Of a stretch of 44,279 nucleotides of DNA, positions 3,359-44,224 are shown in pieces. The stretch is from Lachnospiraceae bacterium. Lineage in GTDB: Bacteria > Bacillota > Clostridia > Lachnospirales > Lachnospiraceae. The notes beneath the pieces are model-generated. The model was not told where the DNA came from. It saw only the letters and a program-made list of their open reading frames with translations, and did not search any database. The stretch is from contig JAFLTH010000017.1 in assembly GCA_022510525.1 (NCBI GenBank), positions 1 to 44,279 on the forward strand. Direction: 5' to 3'. The translations under genes and the position numbers were made by a program. Positions within the stretch are counted from its first letter, which is position 1. Each line of letters begins with the position of its first letter.

Positions 3359-3363
3359 CTAAT

Positions 3364-3431: not shown

Positions 3432-3432
3432 T

Positions 3433-3732
3433 ATGGAAAACACTTTAGCGCAACGATTAATTCAATTACGCGAAAAAAATAATTTTTCTCAAAGCTTTGT
3501 TGCTAGACAAATCGGGGTTACTCCTGCGCTGATTAGCGCATACGAAAAACTTGAAAGAAAACCAAGTTTAGAAAAATTGATAGCTCTTGCAGACATTTAT
3601 CACGTGTCTACAGATTATTTACTTGGTAGAACTTATCAAGATGATAGTTCAAAGATAATTAATGTTGAACATCTGTCTGATAAACAAATAAGAATCTTAC
3701 GTGACTTAATAGAAACTATGAAACAAAATTAA
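3433..3732 (+). CDS. XRE-family (Cro/CI-like) transcriptional repressor
   Basis: This 99-residue protein has a helix-turn-helix at about residues 6-60: LRxxxNxSQxxVAxxIGVTPALISAYEKxxRKPSLExLxxLADxYxVSTDYLLGRT, a textbook XRE/Cro-CI domain with no sensor domain. The last 30 residues are a short helical tail probably used for dimerisation. GAAAGGAA upstream serves as the ribosome binding site. It is divergent from the Mrr-like nuclease, and inverted repeats on both sides of its promoter suggest autoregulation and control of the nuclease. It may alternatively govern maintenance of the mobile element. Confidence 0.88.
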   Translation: MENTLAQRLIQLREKNNFSQSFVARQIGVTPALISAYEKLERKPSLEKLIALADIYHVSTDYLLGRTYQDDSSKIINVEHLSDKQIRILRDLIETMKQN

Positions 3733-3886
3733 TAAGATGTACTCAAGAAAGATTAAATTCCAAAAATATGATTTACTCACTCACAATTAAAATTGAAAAA
3801 AATTAAACAGCAAAAATCAATTTTAATCGTCCAAATAGAAAATTTCAAAAATCAAACAGGGCACACACTTTTTTTCTGAAAAAAGC
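3733..3886. other. AT-rich intergenic region with no gene
   Basis: This stretch between the XRE gene and the recombinase terminator is highly A-rich, with repeated AAATTGAAAAAATT-like words. No ORF, promoter or strong hairpin was found apart from the terminator at its right edge. Confidence 0.4.
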
Positions 3887-3920
3887 AAAAAAACACTCCA
3901 AAACCAATGATTTTGGAGTG
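3887..3920 (-). terminator. Rho-independent terminator of the recombinase transcript
   Basis: Reading on the minus strand, a perfect 10-bp stem (3911-3920 with 3894-3903, CACTCCAAAA and its complement) with a 7-nt loop is followed directly by seven T (3887-3893) and then more T-rich sequence. It lies about 60 bases after the recombinase stop codon. Confidence 0.85.
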
Positions 3921-3977
3921 CCAAAAAAATTTTTTCATTTTGCAAAAATGGTTCATTTAGTCGTGAAAAATTAAATT

Positions 3978-24357: not shown

Positions 24358-25521
24358 CTACTTCACGTATGCACCTGTATCTGCGGCAACCTTATTACTG
24401 CATTCCTTAACCGTTGAAGAAGGTTCATATTCATAATCATCAAACAAAAACTGATGCAGCCATTTAACATTTTGCTCCAAATCAACCGGTATGACACAGG
24501 AGCCCTTGCTTCCGACAGTTCCGGTTGTTCTGTACTCCTCTGTCGGGAAACCGGCCGTTTCAGAGATATTGTAATCGGTTACATGGGTTAATACTTCCAC
24601 AATCTCCGTCAGGTCAAGCGAAGTATAAACTTCTGAAAATACATTATTGGCAATCTGCGTAAGCGATGCAGGCGTAGCTTTTCTGGCCTGGTCGGCAACC
24701 GCGCTCAAGACTTCACGTTGACGTTCTGTACGCCTGAAATCATCTCCTCCGCCATAACGCACACGACAGTAACCGGTGGCCTGAAGACCGTCTAAAAGAA
24801 TGTATCCGGTTTCTCTAAGCGGTGTGTAATCTCTCTTGAGGTTATCAGCCATAGTCAACTGATAGCTGTTTAAGTGGGTCATTTCATTATCATCCACATC
24901 GATGTATACTCCGCCAAGTGCATCGATGGTATCGCTGAGTCCCGCAAAACCAACGGTAACAAAATCCGTTATATTCATGTCCAGATTCATATTCAGCATA
25001 TTAATTGCCATTTCCGCACCGCCTTTGGCATATGCGGCATTACACTTATTATACGTATCATTGCTGAGATTCAGATAGGTATCACGGTAAACCGACACCA
25101 GCTTGCAGTCTCCGGTATCCTGATTAATTGAGGCAATCATGATACAATCGCTTCGGGTACTCTTGGAAAGCGCTCCCGTGGTGGAATCCACACCAAAAAG
25201 TGCGATATTCCGATAACCTTTCATCGTTGTTTCCTCTGCCTGCTTTACCGTATCATTAATTATGATATCCTCGGATATAAATTCGTCTAAGTCAACTCTT
25301 TTGGTTTTTTCTCCTGATAAAGTAATATACAGAACCATGACCATTATCAAAAGGACAAATATTTCTGCAATAAATAGAATAATCCTCCGCCTGGTCTTCT
25401 TTGCCTGCTCTTTCTTGCTGAGCTTTCTGCCAGGGGTCTTTCCACCGGAAGTTTTTGTGCCCGATGACTTTTTCACAGGCCTCTTTTGTTCTTCATATGC
25501 ATCTCTATTGTTTTTTGTCAT
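24358..25521 (-). CDS. LCP (LytR-CpsA-Psr) family glycopolymer ligase
   Basis: This membrane-bound enzyme family transfers glycan chains from lipid carriers to peptidoglycan. The ATG at 25521 (MTKNNRDAYE) has AAGGGAG eight bases upstream and is chosen over an in-frame start ten codons earlier, giving 387 residues. A Lys/Arg-rich cytoplasmic N-terminus (about 1-45), one membrane span (about 47-68) and an extracellular LCP domain (about 100-320) are seen. Markers are LFGVDS, RSDCIMIASI, KLVSVYRDTYL, the GFAGLSDTIDALGGV block and the arginine pair in DFRRTERQREVL. It stands next to the surface-glycan operon and in front of a GT and glmS, which fits attachment of that glycan to the wall. A good promoter lies upstream. 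Confidence 0.93.
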   Translation of the reverse strand: MTKNNRDAYEEQKRPVKKSSGTKTSGGKTPGRKLSKKEQAKKTRRRIILFIAEIFVLLIMVMVLYITLSGEKTKRVDLDEFISEDIIINDTVKQAEETTMKGYRNIALFGVDSTTGALSKSTRSDCIMIASINQDTGDCKLVSVYRDTYLNLSNDTYNKCNAAYAKGGAEMAINMLNMNLDMNITDFVTVGFAGLSDTIDALGGVYIDVDDNEMTHLNSYQLTMADNLKRDYTPLRETGYILLDGLQATGYCRVRYGGGDDFRRTERQREVLSAVADQARKATPASLTQIANNVFSEVYTSLDLTEIVEVLTHVTDYNISETAGFPTEEYRTTGTVGSKGSCVIPVDLEQNVKWLHQFLFDDYEYEPSSTVKECSNKVAADTGAYVK

Positions 25522-25575
25522 TTTAAGTACTCCCTTGATTTCCTGTTTCACAAAATAAAGTAAGTTCCACTTAGC

Positions 25576-25689: not shown

Positions 25690-27099
25690 TTAATAAGCAT
25701 TTTTATTTATGAAACCTTTAAATATAGTCAAAAACATTATTTTAATATCAAAGGATAAGGTCCAGTTCTCTATATAGAAAATATCATATTCTATCCTGCG
25801 CTTAATAGAGGTGTCGCCACGGTAGCCGTTAATCTGTGCCCAGCCGGTAAGTCCGGGTCTCACCTGATGTTTCACCATATACCTTGGAATCTCTTCCTTA
25901 AACTGCTCTACAAACTGGGGCCTTTCAGGTCTTGGTCCCACTATGCTCATATCGCCTTTTAATATGTTAAAGAGCTGCGGGAGCTCGTCCATACTGGTTT
26001 TTCTAAGCAGTTTTCCGACTTTGGTGACACGCGGGTCATCTTTCATGGTCCAGCCCTTTTTCTCCGCATCAGGTCTTTGCACTTCCATAGTACGGAATTT
26101 ATACATTAAAAAAGGTTTATTATGCAGACCTATACGCTCCTGTTTGAATATAACCGGTCCTCTGCTGCTGCATTTTATCGAAATTGCGGCAATCAGCATA
26201 ATCGGCGAAAAGACCACCGCTCCGACTAACGACAGCACAATGTCCACCACCCGCTTGGTAAACCAGTTCAGGGTATTGGTAAGCGGTACATAACGTATAT
26301 TTACAACCGCAAGTCCCATCAGGTCCTCAGTATAGGGTCTGCTTGGAAACAGACTGTTATAGTCAGGTATAAATTTAGTATGCACGCCGGATTTTTCACA
26401 TAAATCAACAATATATTCCAAACGGGAATAATCATTTAACGACAGAGTAATTGCAATCTCATCCAGCTTGTTCTCCGGCAGTATATACCGCAGGTTGCCG
26501 ATTGTCCCCACAACCTTGACTCCTTTGTATACGGTTCCTCTGGGTACTGCATCATCCAGAATTCCACGTACGACATAACCCCATTGAGGATTGGAATTAA
26601 TCCTGTTTATATACTCCTCTGCCGCCCTCGAATAGCCCACCAGAAGAATATACTTTATGTTGTAGCCTTTTTTTCTGAAAAACTGCAGAACTTCCCGTAT
26701 GAGGGTACGACTTATGGTAGTGAATATAATATTTATTATATAAAACATACCCATCATGGAACGCGAAAAGTCCACCTGCTTAATTGCATACCAACCCGCC
26801 ATTAATATGATAATTCCTACGGTGTTTGCCTGAAATATATTAATTATCGCATATTTATGCACGGTTGCACGTTTGGGGGTGTACAAATTAAAATAATAGT
26901 AAAGAATCAGATAACCGGGTACTATAAAATACAATAATTCAAAATAGGTCTGCATATTAAGTACGCCTACCGATGAATCCATATCAGAAAAAGGACTCTC
27001 GAACTTAAGATACCATGCCAACATATATGAAATTGCAATAATAACCGCATCTATCAAAATGTGCAGCCTGTTAAAATATTTCTGGTTATCTTTAATCAT
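25690..27099 (-). CDS. Polyprenyl glycosylphosphotransferase (WcaJ/WbaP type), glycan initiation
   Basis: This 469-residue membrane enzyme transfers a sugar-1-phosphate to undecaprenyl phosphate, the first step in building the surface glycan. The first 130 residues hold four membrane helices. A CoA-binding-like Rossmann part follows (about 140-250). A further helix (about 280-305) starts the bacterial sugar transferase domain, with FKQERIGLHNKPFLMYKFRTM, TSMDELPQLFNILKGDMSIVGPRPE, HQVRPGLTGWAQINGYRG and YIENWTLSFDIKIM, all family hallmarks. GGAG precedes the ATG. It is the last gene of the long operon, directly after a GT2. The substrate, likely UDP-glucose or UDP-galactose, is inferred from the family. 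Confidence 0.93.
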   Translation of the reverse strand: MIKDNQKYFNRLHILIDAVIIAISYMLAWYLKFESPFSDMDSSVGVLNMQTYFELLYFIVPGYLILYYYFNLYTPKRATVHKYAIINIFQANTVGIIILMAGWYAIKQVDFSRSMMGMFYIINIIFTTISRTLIREVLQFFRKKGYNIKYILLVGYSRAAEEYINRINSNPQWGYVVRGILDDAVPRGTVYKGVKVVGTIGNLRYILPENKLDEIAITLSLNDYSRLEYIVDLCEKSGVHTKFIPDYNSLFPSRPYTEDLMGLAVVNIRYVPLTNTLNWFTKRVVDIVLSLVGAVVFSPIMLIAAISIKCSSRGPVIFKQERIGLHNKPFLMYKFRTMEVQRPDAEKKGWTMKDDPRVTKVGKLLRKTSMDELPQLFNILKGDMSIVGPRPERPQFVEQFKEEIPRYMVKHQVRPGLTGWAQINGYRGDTSIKRRIEYDIFYIENWTLSFDIKIMFLTIFKGFINKNAY

Positions 27100-31367: not shown

Positions 31368-33413
31368 CTACCCGTTAATTTTCAAAGCAAAGTCGCTTCT
31401 GTCCAAAGAAAAATTAATATTATAGTAAGGGTCGCCTTTTTCAAGCACTTTCCGCCATTTTTTGCGGAACCTTTCAGACTCTTCATCGTATCTTGCCGCG
31501 TTTTTTCCTTCGCTGTCCGATCCTCTGGATATCGATTCATAGTGATAAAGCTGTGCAAACGGTGTAAATACGTTAAGATATCCGGCTTCCCTTAAGCGAA
31601 GGCAGAAGTCCACATCATTTAATGAAACTTCAAAAGTCTCGTCCAGACCGCCAACTTTTTCATATAGTTCCTTTTTAACCATAAGGCAGGCACCTGTCAC
31701 CGCGCTCACATTCTGGGCATAGCATAGTCTCCCCATATATCCGAGGTTGTTCCTGCTTACCCGGTAATGTGTATGTCCTGCCGTCCTGTGGGCGCCAAGC
31801 CCTATTACAACTCCCGCATGCTGTATCGTTTTATCCTCATAATAAAGTTTACATCCGACCGCGCCTACATCCTCGCGCTGCGCATACATAAGAAGCTCTT
31901 CCATCCAGTTTAGCGTAATTACCTCGGTATCATTATTCAAAAGAATAATATACTCTCCGTCCGCTTTGGAGACACCCAGATTATTAATGCGTGAATAGTT
32001 AAATCCACCCTCATAATCTATTACGCTTATTCGGGGATTTTTGGACAATTCTTCGTAATATTCAAAAATTTCTCCGGTCTTTGAGTTATTTTCCACAATA
32101 ACTATATCATAGTTATCATAGCTGCTCATTTCCAGGATAGAAGTAATGCAACGCTTCAAGTCCTCAAGATGGTCCTTATTTGGAATAACAATTGTTATTT
32201 TAGGCTCCCCTTGTAACTCATAGCGTATTCTGAATATTGTTTCAAAAGCCCTGGTAGATGTAATTTCAAAGTTTTCAAAACCTTTGCTTTTTAAATGCTG
32301 TGCAACGGCTCCCTTGGCGGCATCAATGGCATAACTCTTGGCATTGATGTCCGAAGCAACACTTCCTTTGTGGGAACGCCAGTAATACATAAGCTTCGGG
32401 ATATGCACTACATTCCTTGCCCTATCGGTCAGACGAAGTATCATATCATGGTCCTGACTGCCGTCAAAGCGTGAACGAAACAGCTCCGTACCCTCTAATA
32501 ATTTCCTGTCAAATACGCTGAAATGGCAGATATAATTATTGGCTCGCAGGTTATCAATTGCAAAATCCGGCTTGAAATGAAGAGTAATCATATTGTCAAT
32601 GCTGTCACCATGAAATGTGGCTTCATCACAGTATATATAATCCGCTCCCTGCTCGCAGATTGCCTTCATATATTCAAATAAAATAGATGGATGGAGGATA
32701 TCGTCATGGTCAAAAAGCCCAATATAGTCTCCGCTTGCCATTGCCAGAGCCCGATTGGTATTTCCCGATATTCCTTCATTTTTCTCAAGACGCTCATACA
32801 GAATACGCCCTTTGCTTCCAATGCGCCCCGCCAGTTCGGGATGTGCGTCAAGATACAGACTGTCATCCTCCATATACTCCCTGCATATCGACTCCACATA
32901 CCCATGCAGGTTATCGGAACCGTCAGCAAGACAAAGCTCCCAGTTTTCATAAGTCTGTGCAAGTACGGAGTCTATTGCCTGGGTTAAAAAGTTCTCAGGC
33001 GTATTATAAAGTGGTATAAGAATGCTGATTTTAATATTCTTTGGAAAAACCGTCTCGCGCTGCTTTTCCGCCTCTTCCGGAGTAGGAAAACCTGCACTTC
33101 CATGCTGTATCTTAGCCTTTTTTTCTATGAGTTTGGAATCAACCTTACGTGCAAACCCTCTGATACTCCCGTAATTGCCAATCCGCTCCTTCGTTCTATG
33201 CGCCCAATGTACAAAAGAGCGTAACGGTTTGGAATATTTCCAGAAAACACTGCCCTTGATTCTTGAGAGCTTGTGCTCCGTATTCGCCACTAGTTCCTGC
33301 TCTTTGACAAGTTTTTCCTCAAGCGTCTTACCTTTTAGCCGCTCGGTTTCATACATATCCTTATAATAACGCAGACTGTCGTTTTTGTCTTTTTTTTCAC
33401 GATTTTCTTCCAT
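31368..33413 (-). CDS. Two-domain GT2 glycosyltransferase with N-terminal coiled coil
   Basis: This 681-residue protein carries two GT-A domains. An N-terminal coiled coil (about 15-52) is followed by the short KGSVFWKYSKPLR motif (54-66), shared with the next enzyme upstream. Domain 1 (about 128-390) starts ISILIPLYNTPENF and has LFDHDDILHPS and SQDHDMILRL. Domain 2 (about 400-650) starts ITIVIPNKDHLEDLKRC and has YIILLNNDTEV, SAVTGACLMVKK, NDVDFCLRLREAGY and LYHYESISRG. This double-GT layout is common in rhamnan or teichoic-type polymerases, so the protein probably extends the chain with two linkages. The gap to the upstream GT gene is 17 bases and to phosphoglucomutase 57. Confidence 0.9.
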   Translation of the reverse strand: MEENREKKDKNDSLRYYKDMYETERLKGKTLEEKLVKEQELVANTEHKLSRIKGSVFWKYSKPLRSFVHWAHRTKERIGNYGSIRGFARKVDSKLIEKKAKIQHGSAGFPTPEEAEKQRETVFPKNIKISILIPLYNTPENFLTQAIDSVLAQTYENWELCLADGSDNLHGYVESICREYMEDDSLYLDAHPELAGRIGSKGRILYERLEKNEGISGNTNRALAMASGDYIGLFDHDDILHPSILFEYMKAICEQGADYIYCDEATFHGDSIDNMITLHFKPDFAIDNLRANNYICHFSVFDRKLLEGTELFRSRFDGSQDHDMILRLTDRARNVVHIPKLMYYWRSHKGSVASDINAKSYAIDAAKGAVAQHLKSKGFENFEITSTRAFETIFRIRYELQGEPKITIVIPNKDHLEDLKRCITSILEMSSYDNYDIVIVENNSKTGEIFEYYEELSKNPRISVIDYEGGFNYSRINNLGVSKADGEYIILLNNDTEVITLNWMEELLMYAQREDVGAVGCKLYYEDKTIQHAGVVIGLGAHRTAGHTHYRVSRNNLGYMGRLCYAQNVSAVTGACLMVKKELYEKVGGLDETFEVSLNDVDFCLRLREAGYLNVFTPFAQLYHYESISRGSDSEGKNAARYDEESERFRKKWRKVLEKGDPYYNINFSLDRSDFALKING

Positions 33414-33430
33414 ATCCGTTTTTATCCTTC

Positions 33431-35806
33431 TTATTCTATCAGCAGTCTTTCATCCGACCAGACTACATATTTCCTGTGTCGCTCCGCATCTTCCGCTATC
33501 ATTCCTATTTTCCAGAGTCCGGCTTTCAACTTATTTTTTTCAAAACGCACCACAAAGCCTGCAAGCGATATATTGACCTCATTAGTCAATGCTTTTTCCA
33601 CGTCACTTCTATGCCATGGAAAAGGCGCTATTTTATACAGACTTCCGCCTCTTCTTTGCAGAAGTATACTTCGGGTATATCTTGCATTGTCCTCGCCGGG
33701 AATATAGCTCCATCCCGAAATGGCAATGACATCCGCATCATTACGGTCATTCTTTTGCTGTTCACCGAAATTATCCACTACCAGATGAAGCCGGTCCGAT
33801 TTAGCCTTGGAGAGTGTTTCATTATCCCCCGGAACAAGTTCCGAGAGCACATCTTTTCTCATATGATCACATTTAAAATTACAGGTGTAATTTATACTAT
33901 CATCAATAAGGTTCCTATTATAAAAAGGATCTCTTTTACTCATTGACGGATGCTTTGAATACAAATTCTCTTTTTCCGCAAGCAGGCGCATCCACTTGTT
34001 ATTGTCATTCTGATCCAGTCCTCTGCTCATAGATTCATGATGATAGAGAACCGCATCATTGCGCAGCACATTATAATAACCCGCTTCGCTCAGCCTAAAG
34101 CAAAGGTCCACATCATTGTATGCCACCTTCATCGACTCGTCCATACCGCCCGCTTCCAGATACTTTTTCTTTTCTATCATTAAACAGGCTGCCGTGACCC
34201 CGACCATATCATAGGTAAGGCAGTTACGTCCGTAATAATAACATCTGTCATCTATTAATGAGGTGAGTTTATGTGATGGGCCTACACCCATATTGGTGAT
34301 TCCAACGTGCTGGATCATGTCACTGCCTGCATACCAGAGCTTGGCTCCCACCGCACCCGTATGAGGCTGCATCGCCTGTCCCAGCATAATCTCCAGCCAG
34401 TCTTTATGGATAATTTCAATATCATCGTTTAAGAGAAGCAGATAATCTCCCGAAGCATTTTTCACCCCGAAATTACACATTGCAGAAAAATTAAACTCCA
34501 TCGGCTCATAAATATAGGTAAAGCCGTATTCTTCCTGCAAAATTTCAACCTTGGTTTTATTCTCCGGAGAACTTCCGTTATCTACCACTATCCACTCATA
34601 ATTTCTATATTCGGTCCTCTCGCGGAAGGATGAAAGGCATTGCTCCAGCAATTCAGGATGATCCTTTGACGGTATTATTACCGATACCATTCCCGTTTTG
34701 GCCTTTCCGGAATACTCTTTTCTTATTCTGCCTATATCATAACGCACATGATAGATATCAGGGTCTGCGCCTGTCTCCAAACGCGCCATAACTCCCCTTC
34801 TCTTGAGTACTGCCTCTTTCATATCACAAAAAGCGGCTTCATAGCCTGTCATATAATGCCCCTGCTCGAGTTCCTCAAGCAAAAGCTTCTCTACTATCTC
34901 AAGTGCATCCCTGCCTGCCTGTTTAGCTTCCTCGATTTCTTCGCTTTGGGCTGCACCGGGTTCATAGCGATTATGAAATAACACCTGCTCTATATTCCCT
35001 ATTCTGTCATGTACAACTTTATCTCCGCTCTGAAGGCTCCTGACCAGTCTGTCTCCCTCTTCAAGCGTATATGCCCGTTCTTCCAAAAGCAGGCACAGGT
35101 CATAGAAGTCGGAATAAGAACCGGAGTTGTATCGTTCTCCCTCCAAAAGTCCGTGATAGAGTGACTTCTGCACAATTATCATATGCCCTGCATAACAAAA
35201 TGAAAGCATTGTATCCGGTGACCAGCCCGGCTTAAACCAGGGGTGCATCCTGTTAGATAGGTCTTGCCAGTAATAATCCTCGTCCGCATAAGCAAATAAA
35301 CAGCTTCTGTTTTTGTTAAACCACGATTTAATTATCTTGGATGCATTTTCATCCAGTACACCGTTACCGCACAATATTATACAAAGCTCAGTGCCCTCAA
35401 GCTCTATCTTTTTCCAGCCATTTACCGCTAAATTATCAGGTATTTCGTTTATATCATGTGAGACTTCATTTTCCGCTATCCATTGCAGATATGGGTGCTT
35501 CTGCTTAAAGACTTCATCTTCATACTCTTTATAGCAGTCTTTAGATATCATAGCATCTGTTATCTTTTCAACTATGGGATTTCCGGTTTTATTTTTTGAA
35601 AAAAATGCATAATAACACTTTCTCACAGGCGCAGACAACTTCCAGAAAATACTCTTTTCAATACGCTCAAGGTTATCCTTAAGTTCCTCTTTCTTAAGCT
35701 GCTCATCTGCTAATTTTGCTGCAAGGAGGTTATTTTTCTTTTTTTCTTTTTCATAGGCCGACTGATAATAGGCCGCCCAGTCATATGAAACCCGCTTCTC
35801 TTCCAT
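33431..35806 (-). CDS. Large GT2 glycosyltransferase with degenerate first domain and C-terminal beta domain
   Basis: This 791-residue protein starts with a coiled coil (about 15-50) and KSIFWKLSAPVRK (51-63), matching the neighbouring 681-residue enzyme. A first GT-like domain (about 125-300) has ADEDYYWQD but lacks the usual start motif and looks degenerate. The second domain (about 365-620) is complete: VSVIIPSKDHPELLEQC, WIVVDNGSSPENK, YLLLLNDDIEI, TAACLMIEKKKY, NDVDLCFRLSEAGY and LYHHESMSRG. The last ~120 residues (from about 670: LHLVVDNFG, VIAISGWSYIP) form a separate beta-rich domain of unknown role, possibly for glycan binding. It is probably a chain-extension enzyme paired with the next gene. 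Confidence 0.85.
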   Translation of the reverse strand: MEEKRVSYDWAAYYQSAYEKEKKKNNLLAAKLADEQLKKEELKDNLERIEKSIFWKLSAPVRKCYYAFFSKNKTGNPIVEKITDAMISKDCYKEYEDEVFKQKHPYLQWIAENEVSHDINEIPDNLAVNGWKKIELEGTELCIILCGNGVLDENASKIIKSWFNKNRSCLFAYADEDYYWQDLSNRMHPWFKPGWSPDTMLSFCYAGHMIIVQKSLYHGLLEGERYNSGSYSDFYDLCLLLEERAYTLEEGDRLVRSLQSGDKVVHDRIGNIEQVLFHNRYEPGAAQSEEIEEAKQAGRDALEIVEKLLLEELEQGHYMTGYEAAFCDMKEAVLKRRGVMARLETGADPDIYHVRYDIGRIRKEYSGKAKTGMVSVIIPSKDHPELLEQCLSSFRERTEYRNYEWIVVDNGSSPENKTKVEILQEEYGFTYIYEPMEFNFSAMCNFGVKNASGDYLLLLNDDIEIIHKDWLEIMLGQAMQPHTGAVGAKLWYAGSDMIQHVGITNMGVGPSHKLTSLIDDRCYYYGRNCLTYDMVGVTAACLMIEKKKYLEAGGMDESMKVAYNDVDLCFRLSEAGYYNVLRNDAVLYHHESMSRGLDQNDNNKWMRLLAEKENLYSKHPSMSKRDPFYNRNLIDDSINYTCNFKCDHMRKDVLSELVPGDNETLSKAKSDRLHLVVDNFGEQQKNDRNDADVIAISGWSYIPGEDNARYTRSILLQRRGGSLYKIAPFPWHRSDVEKALTNEVNISLAGFVVRFEKNKLKAGLWKIGMIAEDAERHRKYVVWSDERLLIE

Positions 35807-35809
35807 AGC

Positions 35810-37894
35810 TTAAAACAACCCTCTTTTCTGCATATGCTTTACTGTTTCCTCAGGCATTCTTGTTATCTCCATTGACACCTTAAGAAGGTTTTCCTGTTTT
35901 TGTCCAAGCCGGGATAACTGCAAAGTAATATTCGGATCATCGGTGTCAAAGGCATACACTCCGTCCCCTATACAAATGCCATTGGTGGAAATACATTTAT
36001 TCTTTCCCGAAATAACCGAGTCATTCCACTTTACTTCTTTAAGAAGGACAACACAGTAATAACTGCAGGGGTCAATACGCAGTGCCTTTCTTCCTTCAGG
36101 CACAACTATCTCTAAACCATCTTCGATACTGTACTCATTATCATCCACAAAAAATGAATTTTCCTCCGAAAAACCACTTCCCGTATCTTCATAAACCTGT
36201 ACCCTGCCTTTATGCTTCTCGGACGGTGCCAGCATAGGAATTTCGGAAATACTATAAACAGGTTGTCCGATTGCATCCCTTATTTCACCCATTGACAGCC
36301 GCTTGCCGGTAACATATTTCTGGAAATACATCTCCTGCTGCCGGAAAAAAGCCGCATTTTCTTCGGTTATACCCAGTTTTTGTAAAATTAAATCAAGATT
36401 TAGTTTATCTCTTTTTGCATTTTCAAGCAGATAACAGTAAACTGCACGAAATGCAATCTCTCTGGTCTCTACCTGTTTATCAAATACCCATTCATAATCT
36501 ATAATATTCCACTCTCCGTCCGGAGAAATCAGAATATTGGAAAAAACCAGGTCATAATCGGTTATCGGTAGTTCCTCATTATAGGATATCCTCTCAATAT
36601 ACTCATTAAATAACATATGAAATTTATCTAAATCATTCTTTTCCAGACATTCGTCAAGATATTCTTCCAGAGTTTTTCCTTCTACATACTCAAATTCCGC
36701 ATATACCTTTTTTACTTCATCATCTGCAATAACATCTTCCGGCTCCACCAGAATACATTTGTTAATTTGCAGGTTTCCGCCCGCAAATCTCTCCAAAAGT
36801 TTCTCATAGCCCAGACGCATCCCCGCTATATGCTCAACAGACTCATTAGATAACGGATGTTTTTCTATCTTTTTAACTGTCACTCCCTCGATTTTGGAAT
36901 GTGTAAGCAGGGTTTTTATCCGATACTCATTTGCTCTGTCATTGGAATATCTGGCATACTTAATCTTAGTTTCCGGTCCCAGTACCATCATATATGAATT
37001 GGAAAAAAGAGGGAACTGTCCTTCGGATATAAGGGTATCAAATACCAGCTTTTCATCAAAAAGCAACAGTCTCTCCCTGTCAAAATTACGAAGATTTGAG
37101 GACAGTTCGCCTGCCTTTGGCAGACGCTCATCCGAATACAGGTTTGTCATAAACTTATAATCGGGATAGGGATAATACATAGACATTTCAGCATCCGAAA
37201 AACCACAGTTTTCTGCAATTTTAACAAGAGCATCCCTTGTAAATGTTCTGACAACACCATCCTCGGGATATCCCTCAAGTCCGCTAAACCAGGTTCCAAG
37301 ATGGTCTTCTTTGCAGCCTGCCCAGTATTTAAGTCCCAGCCTGTTCTCAATGGCTATTACAATACGCCCGTCCGCCTTCTTATGTCTGGCAAGAATACGC
37401 AGATAATCTTCAAATGGATTATCGGAATCAATATATGCCTGCCCATACTCAAAAACCCCTATTAGGCATATAAAATCATAATCGTCTGCCAAATCCGGTT
37501 CTATATCCTGAAAATTACCCACATGAATAGTAACATTATCACAATCCATATGCCTGTACGCATTTATTGAGCTCCTCTTCTTAGAAAGCTCGACACAGGT
37601 CACTTCACCGGCTTTCCTGGACAATGCTCCGGTAATTGCACCACAGCCCGAACCAACCTCCAGAACCTTCATATCCTTGGTTATCGGCAGCCATTCCACA
37701 ATATTTTCCCTAAGCTGTGACAAATGATAAAGTACCGGCCAGCTCTTTCTCTCTTCTATAATGCGCGCATACTCCACCTGCGAGTAATTTCTTGCAATTT
37801 CAAGCAGTTCATCCTCTACCTCACCGTCGCAGTACAAATCCTCACCGGAATAATGTTCAAGATTCAGTTTGACTTTTCCGATTTCTTCTATCAT
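35810..37894 (-). CDS. Methyltransferase-kinase fusion, WbdD-like candidate chain terminator
   Basis: This 694-residue protein joins a class-I SAM methyltransferase (about 30-260; motif I VLEVGSGCGAITG at 77-89, then CVELSKKR) to a kinase-like domain (about 310-520). The latter has D448-x4-N453 within YDLVFSNILI and the metal Asp in NIIDYEW (D466), the aminoglycoside-phosphotransferase pattern. The C-terminal ~130 residues are beta-rich and unassigned. WbdD of Gram-negative O-antigen systems has the same order and caps chains with phosphate and methyl groups. The next genes are Wzt with a C-terminal glycan-binding-type domain and Wzm, the partners such a cap would need. The capping role is inference; the GTs here are otherwise different. 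It overlaps nothing and is 5 bases from wzt. Confidence 0.78.
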   Translation of the reverse strand: MIEEIGKVKLNLEHYSGEDLYCDGEVEDELLEIARNYSQVEYARIIEERKSWPVLYHLSQLRENIVEWLPITKDMKVLEVGSGCGAITGALSRKAGEVTCVELSKKRSSINAYRHMDCDNVTIHVGNFQDIEPDLADDYDFICLIGVFEYGQAYIDSDNPFEDYLRILARHKKADGRIVIAIENRLGLKYWAGCKEDHLGTWFSGLEGYPEDGVVRTFTRDALVKIAENCGFSDAEMSMYYPYPDYKFMTNLYSDERLPKAGELSSNLRNFDRERLLLFDEKLVFDTLISEGQFPLFSNSYMMVLGPETKIKYARYSNDRANEYRIKTLLTHSKIEGVTVKKIEKHPLSNESVEHIAGMRLGYEKLLERFAGGNLQINKCILVEPEDVIADDEVKKVYAEFEYVEGKTLEEYLDECLEKNDLDKFHMLFNEYIERISYNEELPITDYDLVFSNILISPDGEWNIIDYEWVFDKQVETREIAFRAVYCYLLENAKRDKLNLDLILQKLGITEENAAFFRQQEMYFQKYVTGKRLSMGEIRDAIGQPVYSISEIPMLAPSEKHKGRVQVYEDTGSGFSEENSFFVDDNEYSIEDGLEIVVPEGRKALRIDPCSYYCVVLLKEVKWNDSVISGKNKCISTNGICIGDGVYAFDTDDPNITLQLSRLGQKQENLLKVSMEITRMPEETVKHMQKRGLF

Positions 37895-37899
37895 TCCTT

Positions 37900-39189
37900 C
37901 TATTTTACCTCTATTTTTGAATTCATATCATAAAACCCAACCGTATCCTTATCCGATATAACGGTCAGATTCAGCACATCATAAAGCCTGTGATAGACCG
38001 TAAAGTTATCGCCCTCATATCCTGTAACGCCAAGGGAAAGCAGATATTCTCCGCCCTGTAGATTCATCTCCTGGGTAAAGACTATCTCCTTGGTCTCCCC
38101 TGCCTTAACCGAATCCAGGAAGGCCTTTTCAAACATCGTATTGGTTCCCGTAATTTCGGTACCTTTTATATTTTTAATAGTAAAAGCAAATACAGGTGAC
38201 GCTATATCCTGCACAACGTCAACCTTCATATGGATGGAAAAACTGTTTCCTTTTATGATAGCAGAGGTTTTAAGCCCTTTTTCATCCGTAATACAGTATT
38301 CCGAGATTATTGCTTTCTTAGAACCATACTCCAGTAAATCCGGATTTACATTGACTCCTTTAGTCAATCCTTCGGAGCCTTTCCCTGCCGCCAGCGCCCT
38401 TAACTGCTCATCTTCCAAAAGACTGTTATCGTCAGCATCAGATATGGCATACTGCCCGACCAGAACCTGTTTATAGGCATCTATCATCTCTTTGGGGTCT
38501 CCCTCGCCAAGCTTCACCCCCTGATTTAACAACACCACCCTGTCGCAGTACTTACTTATACTGCTGAGGTCATGGCTGACAAAGACTATGGTCTTTCCCA
38601 TCTGCTTGAATTCTTCAAACTTGTGGTAGCACTTAGCCTGAAAAAAGACATCACCTACCGAAAGTGCCTCATCTACGATCAATATCTCCGGCTCAATATT
38701 TATGGCAACAGCAAATGCAAGTCTCACAAACATACCGCTGGAATATGTTTTGACAGGTTGATAAACATATTCCCCGATATCCGCAAATTCCAGGATGTCG
38801 TCCATTTTCTCGTCTATTTCTTTTTCGGAAAAGCCTATCATGGTACCGTTTAGATATATATTTTCAATCCCGTTATATTCCATATTAAAACCGGCACCAA
38901 GTTCAAGCAGAGCGGAAATACGTCCGTTTACCTCCACCTCTCCGGATGTGGGATTAAGAACACCTGTTATTATTTTAAGTATGGTAGATTTTCCGGAGCC
39001 GTTGGTTCCGATAATTCCCACTGTTTCGCCACGGTTTATGGTGAGGTTTATACCGCTCAGCGCATGATGGGGCGTATGAAGCTTACCTTTTCCGAAACCA
39101 AGTGCTTCCTTGACTCTGTCCGAGGGCTTATTATACAGTTTATACACTTTTTCAAGATTCGTAACCCGAATCGCAATATTTTCGTCCAT
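37900..39189 (-). CDS. wzt: Wzt/TagH-type ABC ATPase with C-terminal carbohydrate-binding-type domain
   Basis: This 429-residue ATPase drives polysaccharide export. The ABC domain (about 1-240) has Walker A GTNGSGKST (61-69), the GAGFNMEYNGIENIYLNG motif typical of Wzt/TagH, signature TYSSGMFVRLAFA, Walker B ILIVDEAL and H-loop FVSHDL. Residues about 285-429 form a beta-rich domain (SFSIHMKVDVV, TIKNIKGTEITGTNTM, YLLSLGVTGY) matching the C-terminal carbohydrate-binding domain of O9a-like Wzt proteins, which reads the chain-end cap. TagH-type ATPases usually lack it. GTGAGG precedes the ATG. It lies between the permease gene (12 bases) and the methyltransferase-kinase (5 bases), a functional trio. 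Confidence 0.93.
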   Translation of the reverse strand: MDENIAIRVTNLEKVYKLYNKPSDRVKEALGFGKGKLHTPHHALSGINLTINRGETVGIIGTNGSGKSTILKIITGVLNPTSGEVEVNGRISALLELGAGFNMEYNGIENIYLNGTMIGFSEKEIDEKMDDILEFADIGEYVYQPVKTYSSGMFVRLAFAVAINIEPEILIVDEALSVGDVFFQAKCYHKFEEFKQMGKTIVFVSHDLSSISKYCDRVVLLNQGVKLGEGDPKEMIDAYKQVLVGQYAISDADDNSLLEDEQLRALAAGKGSEGLTKGVNVNPDLLEYGSKKAIISEYCITDEKGLKTSAIIKGNSFSIHMKVDVVQDIASPVFAFTIKNIKGTEITGTNTMFEKAFLDSVKAGETKEIVFTQEMNLQGGEYLLSLGVTGYEGDNFTVYHRLYDVLNLTVISDKDTVGFYDMNSKIEVK

Positions 39190-39201
39190 ATTAACCTCAC
39201 T

Positions 39202-40248
39202 TTAGAGAATATCTGCAAAATGCGCCCTAAGTTTCTTAAATATCAGTGTTCCGACACAGAAGAGACTGATTGTAAAAATCCAAAAATAAGTAGAAGAATA
39301 AAAATGTTCAAAAAACCACACTTCTTCATAAATAGCGCTTCGATACCCATTAACAATATAAACCATGGGATTTAACTTAAACAATGCTTTCATAGAATCC
39401 GTGGTAAGCATTGAAATATCCCACAAAATCGGCGTTGCCCACATCCCGATCTGCAGCACTATACTGATGATCTGTTGTAAATCCCTGATAAATACAACAA
39501 GAGCGCAGGTGAAATAGCTCATTGCCAGCACAAGTAAAAACATGCAGAAGCTGTAATAAAACAGCTGCAACGTATATACACTTGGGTAATATCCGTATAA
39601 AACCGCCACAAGTAAAAGGATGCATACAAAAAATACATGTATGAAGGTGGCTGCTATTACTTTAATGATTGGCAGAATGCTTATATTGAATACCACCTTT
39701 TTAACCAGATAATTGTACTCAAGAAGCGCCATGGTTCCCTGCGTTATGGCCTCCGTAAAATAGAACCACGGTACAAGTCCTGCCGTCAGATAAAGTACAT
39801 ACGGCACCTGTACACCGCTTGCCACCAGCTGGCTCTTGGTGTCAAATACCCTGTCAAACACTATCCAGTACATAATCACTGTAACTACAGGCTGTGCCAT
39901 AGCCCAGACCACGCCCAGATATGAGCCCGCATACCGTTTCTTAAAATCATTTTTCGCCAGTTTCCAGATGAGTTTACGGCTCTGGAAAAGCTCTTTTGGT
40001 ATCGTCGTCAAACCTTCGTAAAACAGTGCAAAAATAACACAGGTAAACGTAATAAGTACGCAGCCGCTCACCTTTTTCATATTTTCGGTCGCCTGATCGG
40101 CAAGCGGATTATGGTGGTTTATGAGCACTATTCCCAAAATCAAACCAAGCCCCCAGAAAATAGCTATTACTGCGGGCTTTGAAATAATTCTCTTTTTCTT
40201 ATTCAAATTATTTGAATTTTCTTTTATAACCGTATTATTTGCGCTCAT
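39202..40248 (-). CDS. wzm: ABC-2 permease for polysaccharide export (Wzm/TagG type)
   Basis: This 348-residue permease moves the lipid-linked glycan across the membrane with the Wzt ATPase. The N-terminal ~95 residues carry two extra membrane helices (about 25-43 and 60-80) beyond the normal six-helix ABC2 unit. The core starts with LFQSRKLIWKLAKNDFKKRYAGSYLGVVWAMAQP, the cytoplasmic gate helix of TagG/Wzm, followed by six membrane spans with AGLVPWFYFTEAI, FVRDLQQI-like VVFIRDLQQIISIVLQIG and the closing WATPILWDIS and NPMVYIVNGYRSAIYEE motifs. AAGGAAA stands close to the ATG. The gene is 21 bases from rfbC and 12 from wzt. The extra helices are of unknown function. Confidence 0.93.
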   Translation of the reverse strand: MSANNTVIKENSNNLNKKKRIISKPAVIAIFWGLGLILGIVLINHHNPLADQATENMKKVSGCVLITFTCVIFALFYEGLTTIPKELFQSRKLIWKLAKNDFKKRYAGSYLGVVWAMAQPVVTVIMYWIVFDRVFDTKSQLVASGVQVPYVLYLTAGLVPWFYFTEAITQGTMALLEYNYLVKKVVFNISILPIIKVIAATFIHVFFVCILLLVAVLYGYYPSVYTLQLFYYSFCMFLLVLAMSYFTCALVVFIRDLQQIISIVLQIGMWATPILWDISMLTTDSMKALFKLNPMVYIVNGYRSAIYEEVWFFEHFYSSTYFWIFTISLFCVGTLIFKKLRAHFADIL

Positions 40249-40269: not shown

Positions 40270-40833
40270 CTATTTCCGGTATTTTTCGGTAAATTCTCTG
40301 ATTCCACCCCACTTGGTATCTTTATCGGACTGAATAAGTTTCATTCCTTCATCAATAGGCCAGTCTATTCCTATTTCAGGGTCATTCCATATAATCCCGC
40401 CTTCGTCATTCGGGTGGTAAAAATCGGTGCATTTATACGCAAATTCCGCATAATCGGACAATACCAGAAATCCGTGTGCAAAATTTTTGGGAATAAAGAA
40501 CTGTTTCTTGTTTTCCGCGGAAAGTTTTACCCCATACCACTTGCCATAAGTAGCGGAATCCGGACGGATATCCACCGCCACATCAAATACTTCCCCCTGT
40601 AAAACTCTTACAAGTTTGTCCTGTGGGTAATTAATCTGGAAATGCAGGCCTCTTAACACACCTTTGACCGAGGCTGACTGATTGTCCTGCACAAACACCT
40701 GATCTATTCCTGCTGCCTTGAAATCCTCATATTGATAGGTTTCCATGAAATATCCTCTTTCATCCCCGAAAACAGTAGGTGTAATTACCTTAAGTCCTTC
40801 TATCTCACATGTTTCTACAGTTATCTTTCCCAT
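40270..40833 (-). CDS. rfbC: dTDP-4-dehydrorhamnose 3,5-epimerase
   Basis: This cytoplasmic epimerase works in dTDP-L-rhamnose synthesis and acts on the product of rfbB. The cupin fold carries the family motifs: PTVFGDERGYFMETY, FVQDNQSASVKGVLRGLHFQ (with the catalytic His of GLHFQ), KLVRVLQGEVFDVAVDIR (with the Asp partner), FFIPKNFAHGFLVLSD and EGGIIWNDPEIGIDWP. The length of 187 residues is normal. AAAGGAG precedes the ATG. It follows the GH25 gene by 41 bases and precedes the permease by 21, in one operon. Its presence with rfbA and rfbB shows the glycan contains rhamnose or a related 6-deoxyhexose. Confidence 0.97.
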   Translation of the reverse strand: MGKITVETCEIEGLKVITPTVFGDERGYFMETYQYEDFKAAGIDQVFVQDNQSASVKGVLRGLHFQINYPQDKLVRVLQGEVFDVAVDIRPDSATYGKWYGVKLSAENKKQFFIPKNFAHGFLVLSDYAEFAYKCTDFYHPNDEGGIIWNDPEIGIDWPIDEGMKLIQSDKDTKWGGIREFTEKYRK

Positions 40834-40874: not shown

Positions 40875-42233
40875 TCAGTTGTCTCTTTCCTCTATCGGCA
40901 CATTTCCGATATCGCCCTCCACAACTCCGGTATAACCGCCGGAAACTGCCGAATGGTCAATTGAGGTATCTATATTCATATAACATAAATCCAGATCAAC
41001 ATTTGTCGAAATCCCGTTAATCATTCCTTTGGATGTATACTGCCACATATTATAATATCCGTCATAAGTCGGTACATCCGCATACTGTGCAAGCCAAATA
41101 TTATAATTCGCAAATTCATCCGCATTCACTCTCTTTTTCAGCCAGTTGGTGGATGCATATACTCCGGCCTCATATCCTGCGGAAGCTATTGTATTAAGAA
41201 ACGCCTTATGATACCTGGTCCTATCCTCCGGTGAAAGGTCATCCGCCCTTCCTTTGCCTCCTGAACTTTCGCTGTCCAAAAAGACCGGATAATCCACATC
41301 ATATTCCCTGATAAGGCTGATTACCATACTTGCCTCTTCTATAGCCTCCAGTTCGCTGACCGCCTGTGTAAAGAAATAGACTCCCACCGGAATATCCTCG
41401 GCTATGGCTCCTTTTATATTTTCCTCAAAAAGCGGGTCTATGATCAGTGATCCACTTGATGAACCACGGTATCCGCAGCGTATGATGGCAAACTCTACCC
41501 CGTCTTTTTTTACGGCTTCCCAGTCAATTTCCTTATTCCATTTTGAAACGTCAATACCTTTTTTCGCGTTGCCCGCATCTATTTCAAAGGATGGATTCTC
41601 ACTGCCATCAGCTTCATTTTCAGCTTCCTTTACCTCTAAGTCCTCCTTTGAAACATCCACATCATCTTCAGTTAACATCAGGTATTCAACATCATTCAGT
41701 ACCTTATACTCAATTTCCTGCTTCACTTTGATAGTCGTTACCGTGTTGGGCACCTTATATCCGTCCATTTCATTCATGGACACACTGTATTCGCCTGCAC
41801 GGAGACCGTCAATATAAATAATCCCGTCCTCATCATTGTCGGTATACTCGCCAAGTTCCTGAATCTTGATAGTAAAAGGCACACCGGTTATAAGCTTTCC
41901 GCGGCTGTTTACTATCATAATCCTTAAGTCCTTACTCACCGAACTCATAACAAGCGATACAACCCTGCCCGAATAGGTTTCGATGCTTTTATAGCGGACC
42001 TCCGGATCAAAAAAGGTTTCATCCTGCATAAATGCATGCAGATTATTACCAAGCTGTTTGTCATCAACATCGAGCAACTCACCGTCATCTTCGGAATCTG
42101 ACCGGTTCACAGTTTCGCGAATCCCAAATTTTACCTTGACGGTATCCCAGTTCGTCGCAATAATAACGCCTGTTATTACAAAAAACATTATTACTACCGC
42201 AATTATAGTTCCTCTTAATTTCCTAGAGTCCAT
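40875..42233 (-). CDS. Membrane-anchored GH25 lysozyme in the rhamnose operon
   Basis: This 452-residue protein has a cytoplasmic tip, one membrane helix (about 9-28), a variable linker, an Ig-like/SpaA-type beta domain (about 90-190, with [14 protein letters not shown]) and an acidic linker. The GH25 muramidase domain (about 225-420) opens with [10 protein letters not shown], carries [10 protein letters not shown], the catalytic YPVFLDSES (Asp-x-Glu) and [13 protein letters not shown]. It should cut peptidoglycan outside the membrane. The ATG at 42233, with AGAGG upstream, overlaps the end of rfbA by 11 nt; the open frame three codons earlier starts with TTG. A lysozyme between rfbA and rfbC is odd and suggests a task in inserting the glycan into the wall (inference). 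Confidence 0.9.
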
Positions 42234-43092
42234 TCGCAACCTCTACCAAATATTTTCCGTAATTTGTTTTAAGCAGAGGCTGGGCCAGTTTAAGTAACTG
42301 TTCCTTATCAATAAAGCCTCTCTTAAACGCAATCTCTTCTATGCATGAAATATATAAGCCCTGTCTCTTCTGAAATGCCGCAACGAAATCCGCAGCATCT
42401 AGGAGTGAGTCATGGCTTCCGGTATCCAGCCATGCAAAACCACGTCCCAGCGTTTCTACCCTGAGAGTCCCCCGGCTTAAATATTCATTATTGATACTTG
42501 TGATCTCTATTTCACCGCGGGCGGAAGGTTTTACATTTGCCGCAATCTCCACCACATCATTATCATAAAAATAAAGTCCGGGCACCGCATAATTACTCTT
42601 TGGATGCTCAGGTTTTTCTTCAATCGATAAGGCAATTCCGTTTTCGTCAAACTCAACTACCCCGTATTCCCTCGGATCCCTGACATAATAGCCGAATATT
42701 GTAGCTCCTTTTTCCAGAGATGCCGCTTTTTTAAGAACCCTGGAGAAGCTCTGTCCATAAAAAATATTATCACCAAGTACCAGCGCCACACTATCCTTTC
42801 CGATAAAGTCGGCTCCGATTATAAATGCATCCGCAAGTCCCCTTGGTGTCTCCTGCACCGCATATTCAAAACGCAGCCCAAGCTGCTCACCGCTCCCGAA
42901 CAATTCCTTAAATGACGGAAGGTCCCTTGGAGTAGAAATGATCAGAATATCCTGTATTCCCGCCAGCATAAGTATGGATAAGGGATAATAAATCATCGGT
43001 TTATCGTATACCGGCATAATCTGCTTGGACACTGCCTTGGTCAGCGGATATAACCTGGTTCCGGATCCGCCTGCCAATATAATTCCTTTCAT
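42223..43092 (-). CDS. rfbA: Glucose-1-phosphate thymidylyltransferase
   Basis: This cytoplasmic enzyme forms dTDP-glucose from glucose-1-phosphate and dTTP, the first step of dTDP-rhamnose synthesis. The N-terminal pyrophosphorylase motif [20 protein letters not shown], then [27 protein letters not shown] (metal Asp), [35 protein letters not shown] and the C-terminal helices are all standard. The length of 289 residues is normal. AGGGGAG precedes the ATG. It starts 14 bases after rfbB and its end overlaps the GH25 start. Confidence 0.98.
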
Positions 43093-43106: not shown

Positions 43107-44186
43107 TCAGCTTTCATAGGTTTCGGCATAATATTTCTGATAATCGCCGCTTGTCACATTTCTCATCCAGTCCTCATTTTCAAAGAACCACTTTATCGTA
43201 CGTCTGATTCCGTCTTTGAACATAGTCTCCGGCTCCCAGCCTATTTCTTCCCTGATCTTGTCCGGAGCAATCGCATAACGTCTGTCATGCCCTTTGCGAT
43301 CCTCTACGTAAGTAATCAGATCATCACTTATATGCACTTTTCTAGGGTCACCGTCAGGCAGCATTTCTTTGAGTGTGTCCAGAATAATATGAATAATCTC
43401 AATATTCTGTTTCTCATTGTGCCCGCCGACATTATAAGTTTCAAACAATCTGCCCTTTTCCTGCACCATATCGATTGCCTTGGCATGATCCTCCACATAG
43501 AGCCAGTCACGGACATTTTTACCGTCACCGTATACAGGCAGTTTCTTCCCATTTAAAGCATTGTTTATAATAAGCGGTATCAGTTTCTCCGGAAACTGAT
43601 ACGGTCCGTAATTATTGGAACAATTAGTAATATTGGCAGGAAACTTATAAGTATCCATATAGGATTTTACCAGCATGTCCGAAGACGCCTTGCTCGCTGA
43701 ATACGGACTGTGCGGCGCATAAGGCGTAGTCTCGTAAAAATATCCGCCGTCCTCTTCCAATGAGCCATACACTTCATCCGTGGAAACGTGAAGAAATTTC
43801 TTGTCCGCTTTATAAGTCCCGTCAGGCAGCTCCCACGCCGCTTTTGCACAGTTAAGCATAACTGCCGTGCCAAGAACGTTAGTCCGTACAAAAACCTCCG
43901 GATTTTTGATACTTCTGTCCACATGGCTTTCTGCGGCAAAATGTACTACACGGTCTATGTCATTTTCTTCAAAAATTCCCGATATTGTGTCCTTATCGCA
44001 TATATCAGCTTTAATGAATGTGTAGTTATCCCTATTTTCTATACTTTTTAAATTCTCCAGATTACCGGCATAAGTTAAGGCATCTACATTTATTATACGG
44101 ATTTCATTATCGTATTTTTTGAACATATAATGAATGTAATTGGAGCCAATAAACCCGGCGCCCCCCGTTACGAGATAGGTTCTCAT
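43107..44186 (-). CDS. rfbB: dTDP-glucose 4,6-dehydratase
   Basis: This cytoplasmic NAD-dependent enzyme of the short-chain dehydrogenase fold makes dTDP-4-keto-6-deoxyglucose. Visible motifs are the NAD-binding [41 protein letters not shown] (catalytic Thr-Asp-Glu), the [12 protein letters not shown] Tyr-x3-Lys motif, [15 protein letters not shown] and [14 protein letters not shown]. The frame is open from a TTG at 44195, but the ATG at 44186 has AAGGAG upstream and is preferred (359 residues). It is the first visible gene of the operon. The upstream region 44,187-44,279 carries repeat copy B and no clear paired promoter, so the operon may start here or outside the window. Confidence 0.98.
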
Positions 44187-44224
44187 TCGTTGCAATCTCC
44201 TTCTTAAATTCTCATATTACACAG

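Follow-up and report, generated by a model that had tools for sequence, protein, structure and literature searches.

A candidate methyltransferase-kinase chain terminator beside a Wzm-Wzt glycan exporter in a Lachnospiraceae bacterium

The finishing of polysaccharide chains by an end cap has so far been worked out mainly in Gram-negative bacteria. Chains of the Klebsiella pneumoniae O7 antigen, for example, end in a methyl-phosphate that is added by the enzyme ORF6 (PMC11231755). Here we analyse a 44,279-nucleotide stretch of DNA from a Lachnospiraceae bacterium (GenBank assembly GCA_022510525.1, contig JAFLTH010000017.1; "the window" below means this whole stretch), in which a gene for a methyltransferase-kinase, here called MTK, lies beside the exporter genes wzm and wzt. 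Taking together the genes themselves, predicted folds, conserved catalytic residues, homology, co-occurrence and a correlated motif in Wzt, we consider it likely that MTK is a chain terminator with a catalytic part of the O7 ORF6 type and that the cap gates the neighbouring exporter.

ORF6-O7 phosphorylates O-3 of the terminal rhamnose, the phosphate is then methylated, and the D441A variant is inactive (PMC11231755). The protein is described as a methyltransferase, an unannotated kinase closest to aminoglycoside kinases, an Ig-like domain, a coiled-coil and two glycosyltransferase family 2 (GT2) modules (PMC11231755). It differs from WbdD, the terminator of Escherichia coli O9a, in sequence and in kinase structure; the orthologues named come from alpha- and gammaproteobacteria and cyanobacteria, and known terminators carry a coiled-coil ruler (PMC11231755). 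The WbdD residues that confer phosphate methylation include H132, H133 and R203 (PMC3482155). On the export side, the Wzt domain of Aquifex aeolicus has been shown to recognise a terminal modification, and its Trp362 stacks on the methyl group of a 3-O-methyl cap (PMC9445017). In a Gram-positive bacterium, a 2-O-methyl cap with Wzt-dependent export has already been proposed for the S-layer glycan of Geobacillus stearothermophilus (PMC2943079).

The methyltransferase-kinase and its relatives

The genes wzm, wzt and MTK are three minus-strand open reading frames (ORFs) that lie head to tail at 35810-40248. The gaps between them are 12 bases (wzm-wzt) and 5 bases (wzt-MTK), and another 3 bases separate MTK from the glycosyltransferase gene gtA. 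A preliminary description of this DNA had read the three as a Wzm, a Wzt and a methyltransferase-kinase fusion like WbdD, and the ORFs agree with it to the base. It had also picked out a methyltransferase motif I and three kinase-like residues, all of which hold up across relatives. In an alignment of the window MTK with 103 of 109 full-length MTKs (104 rows; a second alignment held the window and 87), motif I reads E79-V-G81-S-G83-C-G85, with E79, G81 and G85 present in 104/104 rows and G83 and C84 in 103/104. D448, N453 and D466 are invariant in all 104, as are K345, E468, W469 and R483.

Residues 61-233 match the Pfam family Methyltransf_23 (E 6.1e-9), and a whole-protein Pfam scan found no kinase family at E up to 0.1. 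Because the fold-match lists for the full-length model were filled by methyltransferases, we modelled the kinase segment separately. Alone, it is predicted to adopt a kinase fold in which the phosphotransfer residues are present, as had been proposed. Its top VIA-align 2 scores are to the aminoglycoside kinase APH(3')-Ia, and WaaP is also in the top group. A phmmer search of the Protein Data Bank (PDB) with MTK returned generic methyltransferases and weak kinase matches only. The C-terminal region (556-690) is beta-rich in the model and has no Pfam match; it is possibly the counterpart of the Ig-like domain reported after the kinase of ORF6-O7. The MTK model contains no coiled-coil, and its longest helix after residue 545 spans 682-690.

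The link to the O7 enzyme comes through a search of plasmid records with MTK, which gave two proteins, one from Citrobacter braakii (649 aa; 27.7% BLAST identity over 499 columns) and one from Pseudomonas asturiensis (1457 aa, with two C-terminal GT2 domains; 26.6% over 644 columns). An hhalign comparison of the MTK family with residues 1-760 of the Pseudomonas protein gave 100% probability (E 2.5e-46) over 624 columns; the alignment takes in the methyltransferase, the kinase and the C-terminal domain, as far as MTK residue 684. The Pseudomonas protein has Y28, Y66, G91, G93, E112 and Y158 at exactly the six residue numbers published for ORF6-O7, and Y21, Y56, G81, G83, E102 and Y150 of the window align with them. 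D448 of the window aligns with Pseudomonas D443, which we take as the counterpart of ORF6-O7 D441. The Citrobacter cluster runs rmlB, rmlA, rmlC, rmlD, an insertion sequence, permease, ATPase, MTK and glycosyltransferase, which is nearly the order of the window. The nearest named MTK relative (90% identity in the best segment) is in a Lachnospiraceae metagenome-assembled genome, and most listed relatives are also from Lachnospiraceae.

WbdD proved to be a more distant comparison than the preliminary description had supposed. We used the sequence from the O9-family locus of E. coli HS (wzm-wzt-wbdD-wbdA), where wbdD is annotated as a methyltransferase and has the published length of 708 aa. The gene order of the window is the same, and so is the order of domains, methyltransferase then kinase beside wzm-wzt, as had been noted. 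By sequence, MTK matches only the methyltransferase of WbdD (BLAST E 0.007; hhalign probability 42), and neither hhalign nor hmmsearch found a match to the WbdD kinase. H132 and H133 of WbdD align with E149 and Y150 of MTK and are thus not conserved. The WbdD structure 4azs is absent among the structure matches listed for the full-length and kinase models, which does not exclude similarity. Given the weak, methyltransferase-only match, the loss of H132/H133 and the missing coiled-coil, MTK is not a WbdD by sequence; its demonstrable relatives are of the O7 ORF6 type. The catalytic Asp/Asn/Asp of MTK are spaced by 5 and 13 residues, like D351, N356 and D369 of WbdD. This spacing is general to protein kinases, and we dropped it as a specific pointer to WbdD.

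The exporter and its Wzt_C site

The window Wzt carries the C-terminal glycan-binding-type domain that had been proposed for it: Wzt_C (PF14524) matches at E 5.1e-41, with 140 bits against a cut-off of 30.4 (E 1.3e-41 in the nucleotide-placed search), and aligns with Wzt_C of E. coli O9. The whole protein is 38% identical to each of the E. coli O9 and O8 Wzt proteins near full length (O9: E 3e-86). It falls below the NCBIfam cut-offs for TagH (216 against 320 bits and 262 against 538 bits).

One site in Wzt_C separates the kinase-linked proteins from the others. The HMMER alignment, with columns counted by hand, places Aquifex Trp362 on Arg401 of the window. At the same site the Wzt proteins of E. 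coli O9, Citrobacter and Pseudomonas read DRRYD, and those of O8 and Aquifex have Trp. R401 and Y403 are present in 152/152 kinase-linked Wzt_C rows, which include three copies of the window's own gene; the pattern is RxYD in 150 and RxYE in 2. RxY(D/E) occurs in 0/20 kinase-less Wzt_C controls from the same family. For these controls, 30 of the 33 genomes with Wzt_C only were searched, 20 loci were taken with their flanks and the 20 Wzt were aligned; no kinase or MTK-type methyltransferase match was found in the 20 loci. Our custom Wzt_C model missed two control Wzt, which the Pfam model matched. Three further Wzt from a single kinase-less genome (loci L227-L229) are also without RxYD. In L227 and L229 of that genome an ordinary methyltransferase without a kinase adjoins wzt, and in L228 a small ORF separates the two.

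As far as the protein alignments go, the RxY(D/E) site fits a Wzt_C tuned to a charged cap, a correlation drawn from few reference points. Several cap chemistries may coexist in the family.

Distribution, variants and surroundings

MTK relatives (E up to 1e-10) are present in 152 of 299 sampled genomes of the window's family and Wzt_C in 180 of 299. The preliminary description had named co-occurrence of the genes across Lachnospiraceae as a check, and the association is strong: 147 genomes have both, 5 have MTK only, 33 have Wzt_C only and 114 have neither (odds ratio 102; Fisher p 6e-45, uncorrected for shared ancestry). Its statement that Gram-positive systems normally lack both cap enzyme and Wzt_C was too strong, given how common Wzt_C is in this family and the Geobacillus precedent (PMC2943079). 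The best Wzt_C match reaches 1e-35 or better in 144 of the 147 MTK-positive genomes as against 3 of the 33 with Wzt_C only. In those 3 (G081, G153 and G178; loci L170-L172) a kinase follows wzt directly or is separated from it by one small ORF, and we dropped the count of 33 genomes with Wzt_C but without any cap kinase. Beyond the family, MTK is rarer: in a class-wide draw 18 of 291 genomes match the MTK profile at 1e-15, 9 of them from the window's family, and in a phylum-wide draw 6 of 299 match the kinase profile at 1e-8, 4 of them from the family.

At the level of loci, we examined 149 that had been chosen for matching MTK. A Wzt_C ORF and an MTK-family methyltransferase ORF are both present in 146 of them and lie within -60 to 400 bases of each other in 136 of the 146; this pairing places the arrangement beyond chance. 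We rejected the stricter statement that MTK always occurs with Wzt_C because 5 MTK genomes show no Wzt_C match. In two of these (G277, G279) the MTK match is at a contig end (L166, L165), and in G188 no Wzt_C lies within 13 kb (L168).

The methyltransferase and kinase are fused in 109 of the 149 loci; another 5 have the fusion joined to GT2, 19 have the two on separate ORFs, and in 16 they are separate and the kinase is fused to GT2. Wherever they are split (35 loci), the kinase ORF starts -98 to +75 bases from the methyltransferase ORF. A methyltransferase of this family without a kinase was found in 0/149 loci, a count that covers this methyltransferase family only. We also hand-picked 40 variant loci that had long ORFs or matched only in part; all of them except L145 retain the catalytic Asp/Asn/Asp (39 of 40).

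Some unusual proteins turned up alongside these variants. A 1178-aa fusion in L171 (2421-5957, minus strand) combines a kinase of the cap type, a rhamnan synthesis protein F domain (PF05045, E 1.2e-46) and a HAD hydrolase; no methyltransferase is recognisable in the fusion, which may make phosphate-only caps. The 792-aa protein of L163 (3799-6177, minus strand) matches the MTK methyltransferase model in part (152-292) and the kinase weakly, and ends in a cytidylyltransferase-like domain (PF01467, E 3.4e-17). Three unannotated records labelled "Bacteriophage sp." from human faeces (MT839147.1, MT836085.1 and MT836982.1) also hold MTK relatives with 38-56% identity, which are either phage-borne or on mis-sorted bacterial contigs.

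Around the window's own cluster (Table 1), rmlC, a GH25 protein, rmlA and rmlB lie upstream of wzm, and GT2 enzymes, a phosphohexomutase, a WcaJ-type primer enzyme and a LytR-CpsA-Psr (LCP) protein lie downstream of MTK. The GH25 gene (40875-42239, minus strand, between rmlA and rmlC) encodes a lysozyme-type protein with a SpaA-like domain and has homologues in 69/111 loci. The sole strong RmlD match of the genome is outside the cluster, on another contig (contig 138, 18109-18939). A possible mobile or defence patch near the start of the window (2548-5477) includes a serine recombinase (Resolvase, E 1.8e-33) together with a restriction endonuclease of the Mrr type (E 6.9e-30). Scans of the window for Rfam families (gathering cut-offs) and tRNAs gave no matches, and promoter- and terminator-like patterns occur at counts near the shuffle means.

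Table 1. Features of the exporter cluster and its neighbours in the window (fractions of 111 are loci with a match or homologue; many of these loci are too short to extend as far as wzm)
Feature	Position	Strand	Evidence
wzm, ABC-2 permease of glycan exporter, 348 aa	39202..40248	-	ABC2_membrane E 1.3e-16; 78/111
wzt, exporter ATPase with C-terminal glycan-recognition domain, 429 aa	37900..39189	-	ABC_tran and Wzt_C; 110/111
Wzt nucleotide-binding domain, residues 6-245	38455..39174	-	ABC_tran 44-176; 8dku E 1.1e-83, best stretch 6-243
Wzt_C (cap-recognition type) domain, residues 287-422	37924..38331	-	PF14524; best PDB match 2r5o E 1.1e-6
Wzt_C motif R401-L-Y403-D404, site of cap-stacking Trp362 in Aquifex Wzt	37978..37989	-	Alignments and pattern counts
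MTK, methyltransferase-kinase, probable chain-capping enzyme, 694 aa	35810..37894	-	
MTK class I S-adenosylmethionine methyltransferase domain, residues 1-297	37004..37894	-	
MTK kinase domain, residues 298-545	36260..37003	-	
MTK kinase catalytic segment D448...N453...D466	36497..36553	-	Invariant 104/104
MTK C-terminal beta domain, residues 556-690	35825..36229	-	Beta-rich in predicted model
gtA, GT2 glycosyltransferase directly after MTK	33431..35806	-	Glycos_transf_2 E 1.3e-18
gtB, double GT2 glycosyltransferase	31368..33413	-	37.7% identity to glycosyltransferase part of Pseudomonas O7-type protein, 560 columns
rmlC (dTDP-rhamnose pathway)	40270..40833	-	Named by reading the protein; 76/111
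rmlA (dTDP-rhamnose pathway)	42223..43092	-	Named by reading the protein; 72/111
rmlB (dTDP-rhamnose pathway)	43107..44195	-	Named by reading the protein; 53/111; weak RmlD_sub_bind match E 2e-9
WcaJ-type undecaprenyl-phosphate glucose phosphotransferase, possible initiating enzyme	25690..27099	-	TIGR03023 E 9.9e-152, 506 bits, cut-off 410.75
LCP protein (glycan attachment to peptidoglycan)	24358..25551	-	LytR_cpsA_psr E 1.7e-31; TIGR00350 86 bits, cut-off 62.3

A capping model, its alternatives and known systems

How might such a locus work? The rml, WcaJ and GT2 genes suggest a supply of dTDP-rhamnose and of a lipid-linked primer, from which GT2 enzymes would build a rhamnose-rich chain in the cytosol; we infer the rhamnose from the rml genes and from the kinase-RgpF fusion in L171. 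By homology to ORF6-O7, the MTK kinase would then phosphorylate the sugar at the non-reducing end, probably a rhamnose; once the methyltransferase domain had methylated that phosphate, growth would stop. By analogy with O9a and Aquifex Wzt_C, the Arg-x-Tyr-Asp site would bind the charged cap, and Wzm-Wzt would export finished chains only. The LCP protein would finally tie the chain to peptidoglycan.

The model must also account for the control of chain length, since the terminator has no ruler of its own. The N-terminus of gtA has a proline-free, heptad-like stretch ending SIFWKLSAPVR, which resembles the end of the WbdD coil (SRSWRMTKGYR). In our own crude heptad scan, which is not a published predictor, gtA has the top score, 1.36, among 15 window proteins; wzt and gtE score 1.26, gtB and MTK 1.20 (in MTK inside the kinase domain), WbdD 1.52 and the Pseudomonas protein 1.30. 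Both gtA and gtB (31368-35806) start with charged stretches ending SxFWKxSxPxR, like the end of the WbdD coiled-coil. We rejected gtB as a coiled-coil by score, since 1.20 does not stand out, and its likeness is by eye only. Our guess is that the ruler moved from the terminator to the polymerising glycosyltransferase (gtA and, by eye, gtB); alternatively, chain length may be set without a ruler.

Several observations weigh against the capping model. With H132/H133 of WbdD not conserved, the methyl acceptor could be a hydroxyl. Overall similarity cannot choose between phosphate and methyl caps, as Wzt_C of the window shares 28-29% identity with that of O8 and of O9 alike. In kinase-less controls, basic residues lie one column from R401, which makes the contrast at this site partly alignment-dependent, although the pattern count is not; for this reason R401 alone was dropped as a diagnostic and RxY(D/E) was counted instead. 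A contig end borders or truncates 5 of the 20 control loci, so a kinase beyond it could be missed; a genome-wide search gave no MTK match for the genomes of these five. Nor is every kinase residue common to both groups: R361 (Citrobacter) and H359 (Pseudomonas) stand at the position of K345, and Citrobacter has E464 at that of D466. The O7 type of MTK appears to be linked through the Pseudomonas homologue, which was itself recognised by residue numbers and architecture. Homologues without Wzt_C, which the preliminary description had named as a point against its view, do occur: in L156 (G304, from the class search) and L167 (G076), MTK lies beside a short Wzt of 244 and 252 aa that lacks the domain. 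Conversely, Pfam recognises no methyltransferase (E 0.01) in L171 (kinase-RgpF-HAD) or L172 (kinase-GT2-GT1), although L171 also has a 187-aa ORF with a trace of the family methyltransferase (4-9 bits). Together these four loci mean that the coupling is not universal.

The kinase-GT2 fusions bear on another reading, in which MTK decorates the chain by placing (methyl-)phosphate on internal or side-chain sugars and Wzt_C reads that decoration, or the sugar pattern, and not a terminal cap. Such fusions, found in 21 of 149 loci, would suit repeated modification during synthesis, and phosphate decorations are present in Gram-positive wall polysaccharides, for example glycerol phosphate on the serotype c carbohydrate (SCC) of Streptococcus mutans (PMC11754754). 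However, the homologue ORF6-O7 acts on the terminal residue though itself fused to glycosyltransferases (PMC11231755), and the Aquifex Wzt domain recognises a terminal modification (PMC9445017); we regard decoration as unlikely. The changed H132/H133 and the three kinase-less loci with generic methyltransferases at or near wzt would instead suit an O8-like cap, in which a sugar hydroxyl is methylated and the kinase domain is a mere scaffold or has some other target. This seems to us quite unlikely, since the kinase residues are invariant, the kinase is kept in L171 and L172, which have no recognisable methyltransferase, and RxY(D/E) is common to the Wzt of phospho-capped systems and not to O8 or Aquifex.

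Two further readings concern the kinase itself. It might phosphorylate a lipid-linked or protein partner and regulate export independently of the chemistry of the glycan end. Protein kinases do head the Foldseek list for the kinase model, and the kinase profile has weak sequence similarity to them (GCN2, E 5.3e-4), but the top VIA-align 2 group with APH(3')-Ia and WaaP and the homology to the ORF6-O7 type make a regulatory role highly improbable. Nor do we give much credence to the idea that MTK is WbdD's true orthologue in a Clostridium and shares its residues and ruler mechanism. Domain order, gene order and the Asp/Asn/Asp spacing agree with it, but the sequence comparisons largely refute it, the coiled-coil is missing, and the O7 enzyme, which differs from WbdD in sequence and kinase structure (PMC11231755), is the better relative. 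The preliminary description stands in its kinase fold, Wzt_C and co-occurrence, with the gene order of E. coli O9 in its favour, and not in WbdD identity, with H132/H133 and the coiled-coil gone, or in its generalisation about Gram-positive bacteria.

Why would it matter if MTK caps chains for export? The finish-cap-export quality control known from lipopolysaccharide O antigens would then also govern wall polysaccharides of many Clostridia, and the wall polymer would have a defined chemical end. RxY(D/E) in Wzt_C would be a simple sequence mark that may separate phosphate-capped from methyl-capped exporters. In a bolder form of the capping model, which we advance tentatively and with some doubt, about half of the sampled family genomes might make a wall-bound rhamnan whose (methyl-)phosphate end cap licenses export, with the ruler lost from the cap enzyme, a coiled-coil now on the polymerising glycosyltransferase, and the kinase, not the methyltransferase, indispensable. 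The kinase is singled out here because kinase-only versions, one of them fused to an RgpF-type domain, retain a phosphate-type Wzt_C.

Among described exporters, Aquifex Wzm-Wzt (8dku) is the best-scoring solved Wzt and shares the Wzt_C fold with the window; its O antigen is rhamnose-rich, like the chain proposed here, whereas its cap is 3-O-methyl and Trp362 stands in place of Arg401 (PMC9445017). TagGH/TarGH exporters have a nucleotide-binding domain similar to that of the window Wzt (TarH 6jbh, E 6.5e-65), which additionally carries Wzt_C. The Geobacillus WsaE/Wzm-Wzt system is, like the one proposed here, Gram-positive and associated with a rhamnan, a methyltransferase cap and a Wzt predicted to bind the capped chain (PMC2943079). 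However, WsaE is reported to have three domains, one methyltransferase and two glycosyltransferases, with no kinase named among them, and the glycan goes to the S-layer protein (PMC2943079). A capped, exporter-linked rhamnan in a Gram-positive bacterium therefore has a precedent, and the methyltransferase-kinase terminator would be the new part; we found no report of one in a Gram-positive, in a limited search that in part covered only the top of large result sets, with subscription papers mostly outside it.

The locus resembles the O9a WbdD system in its methyltransferase-kinase order, gene order, RxYD site and Wzt, Wzt_C included. It differs in that the MTK kinase has no detectable homology to WbdD and the methyltransferase barely any, in the absent coiled-coil and changed H132/H133, and in a chain that is probably rhamnose-rich and not a polymannose. 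With ORF6-O7, MTK shares a methyltransferase, an aminoglycoside-kinase-like kinase, a place beside wzm-wzt and rml genes, probably action on rhamnose and, possibly, the beta domain after the kinase. Unlike ORF6-O7, it lacks the coiled-coil, the glycosyltransferases of the window are on separate polypeptides, and its host belongs to the Clostridia and not to the alpha- and gammaproteobacteria or cyanobacteria of the named orthologues. Because the coiled-coil is absent from its polypeptide, MTK is best described, from its sequence and predicted model, as a putative ruler-less variant of the O7 ORF6-type terminator and not as a full member.

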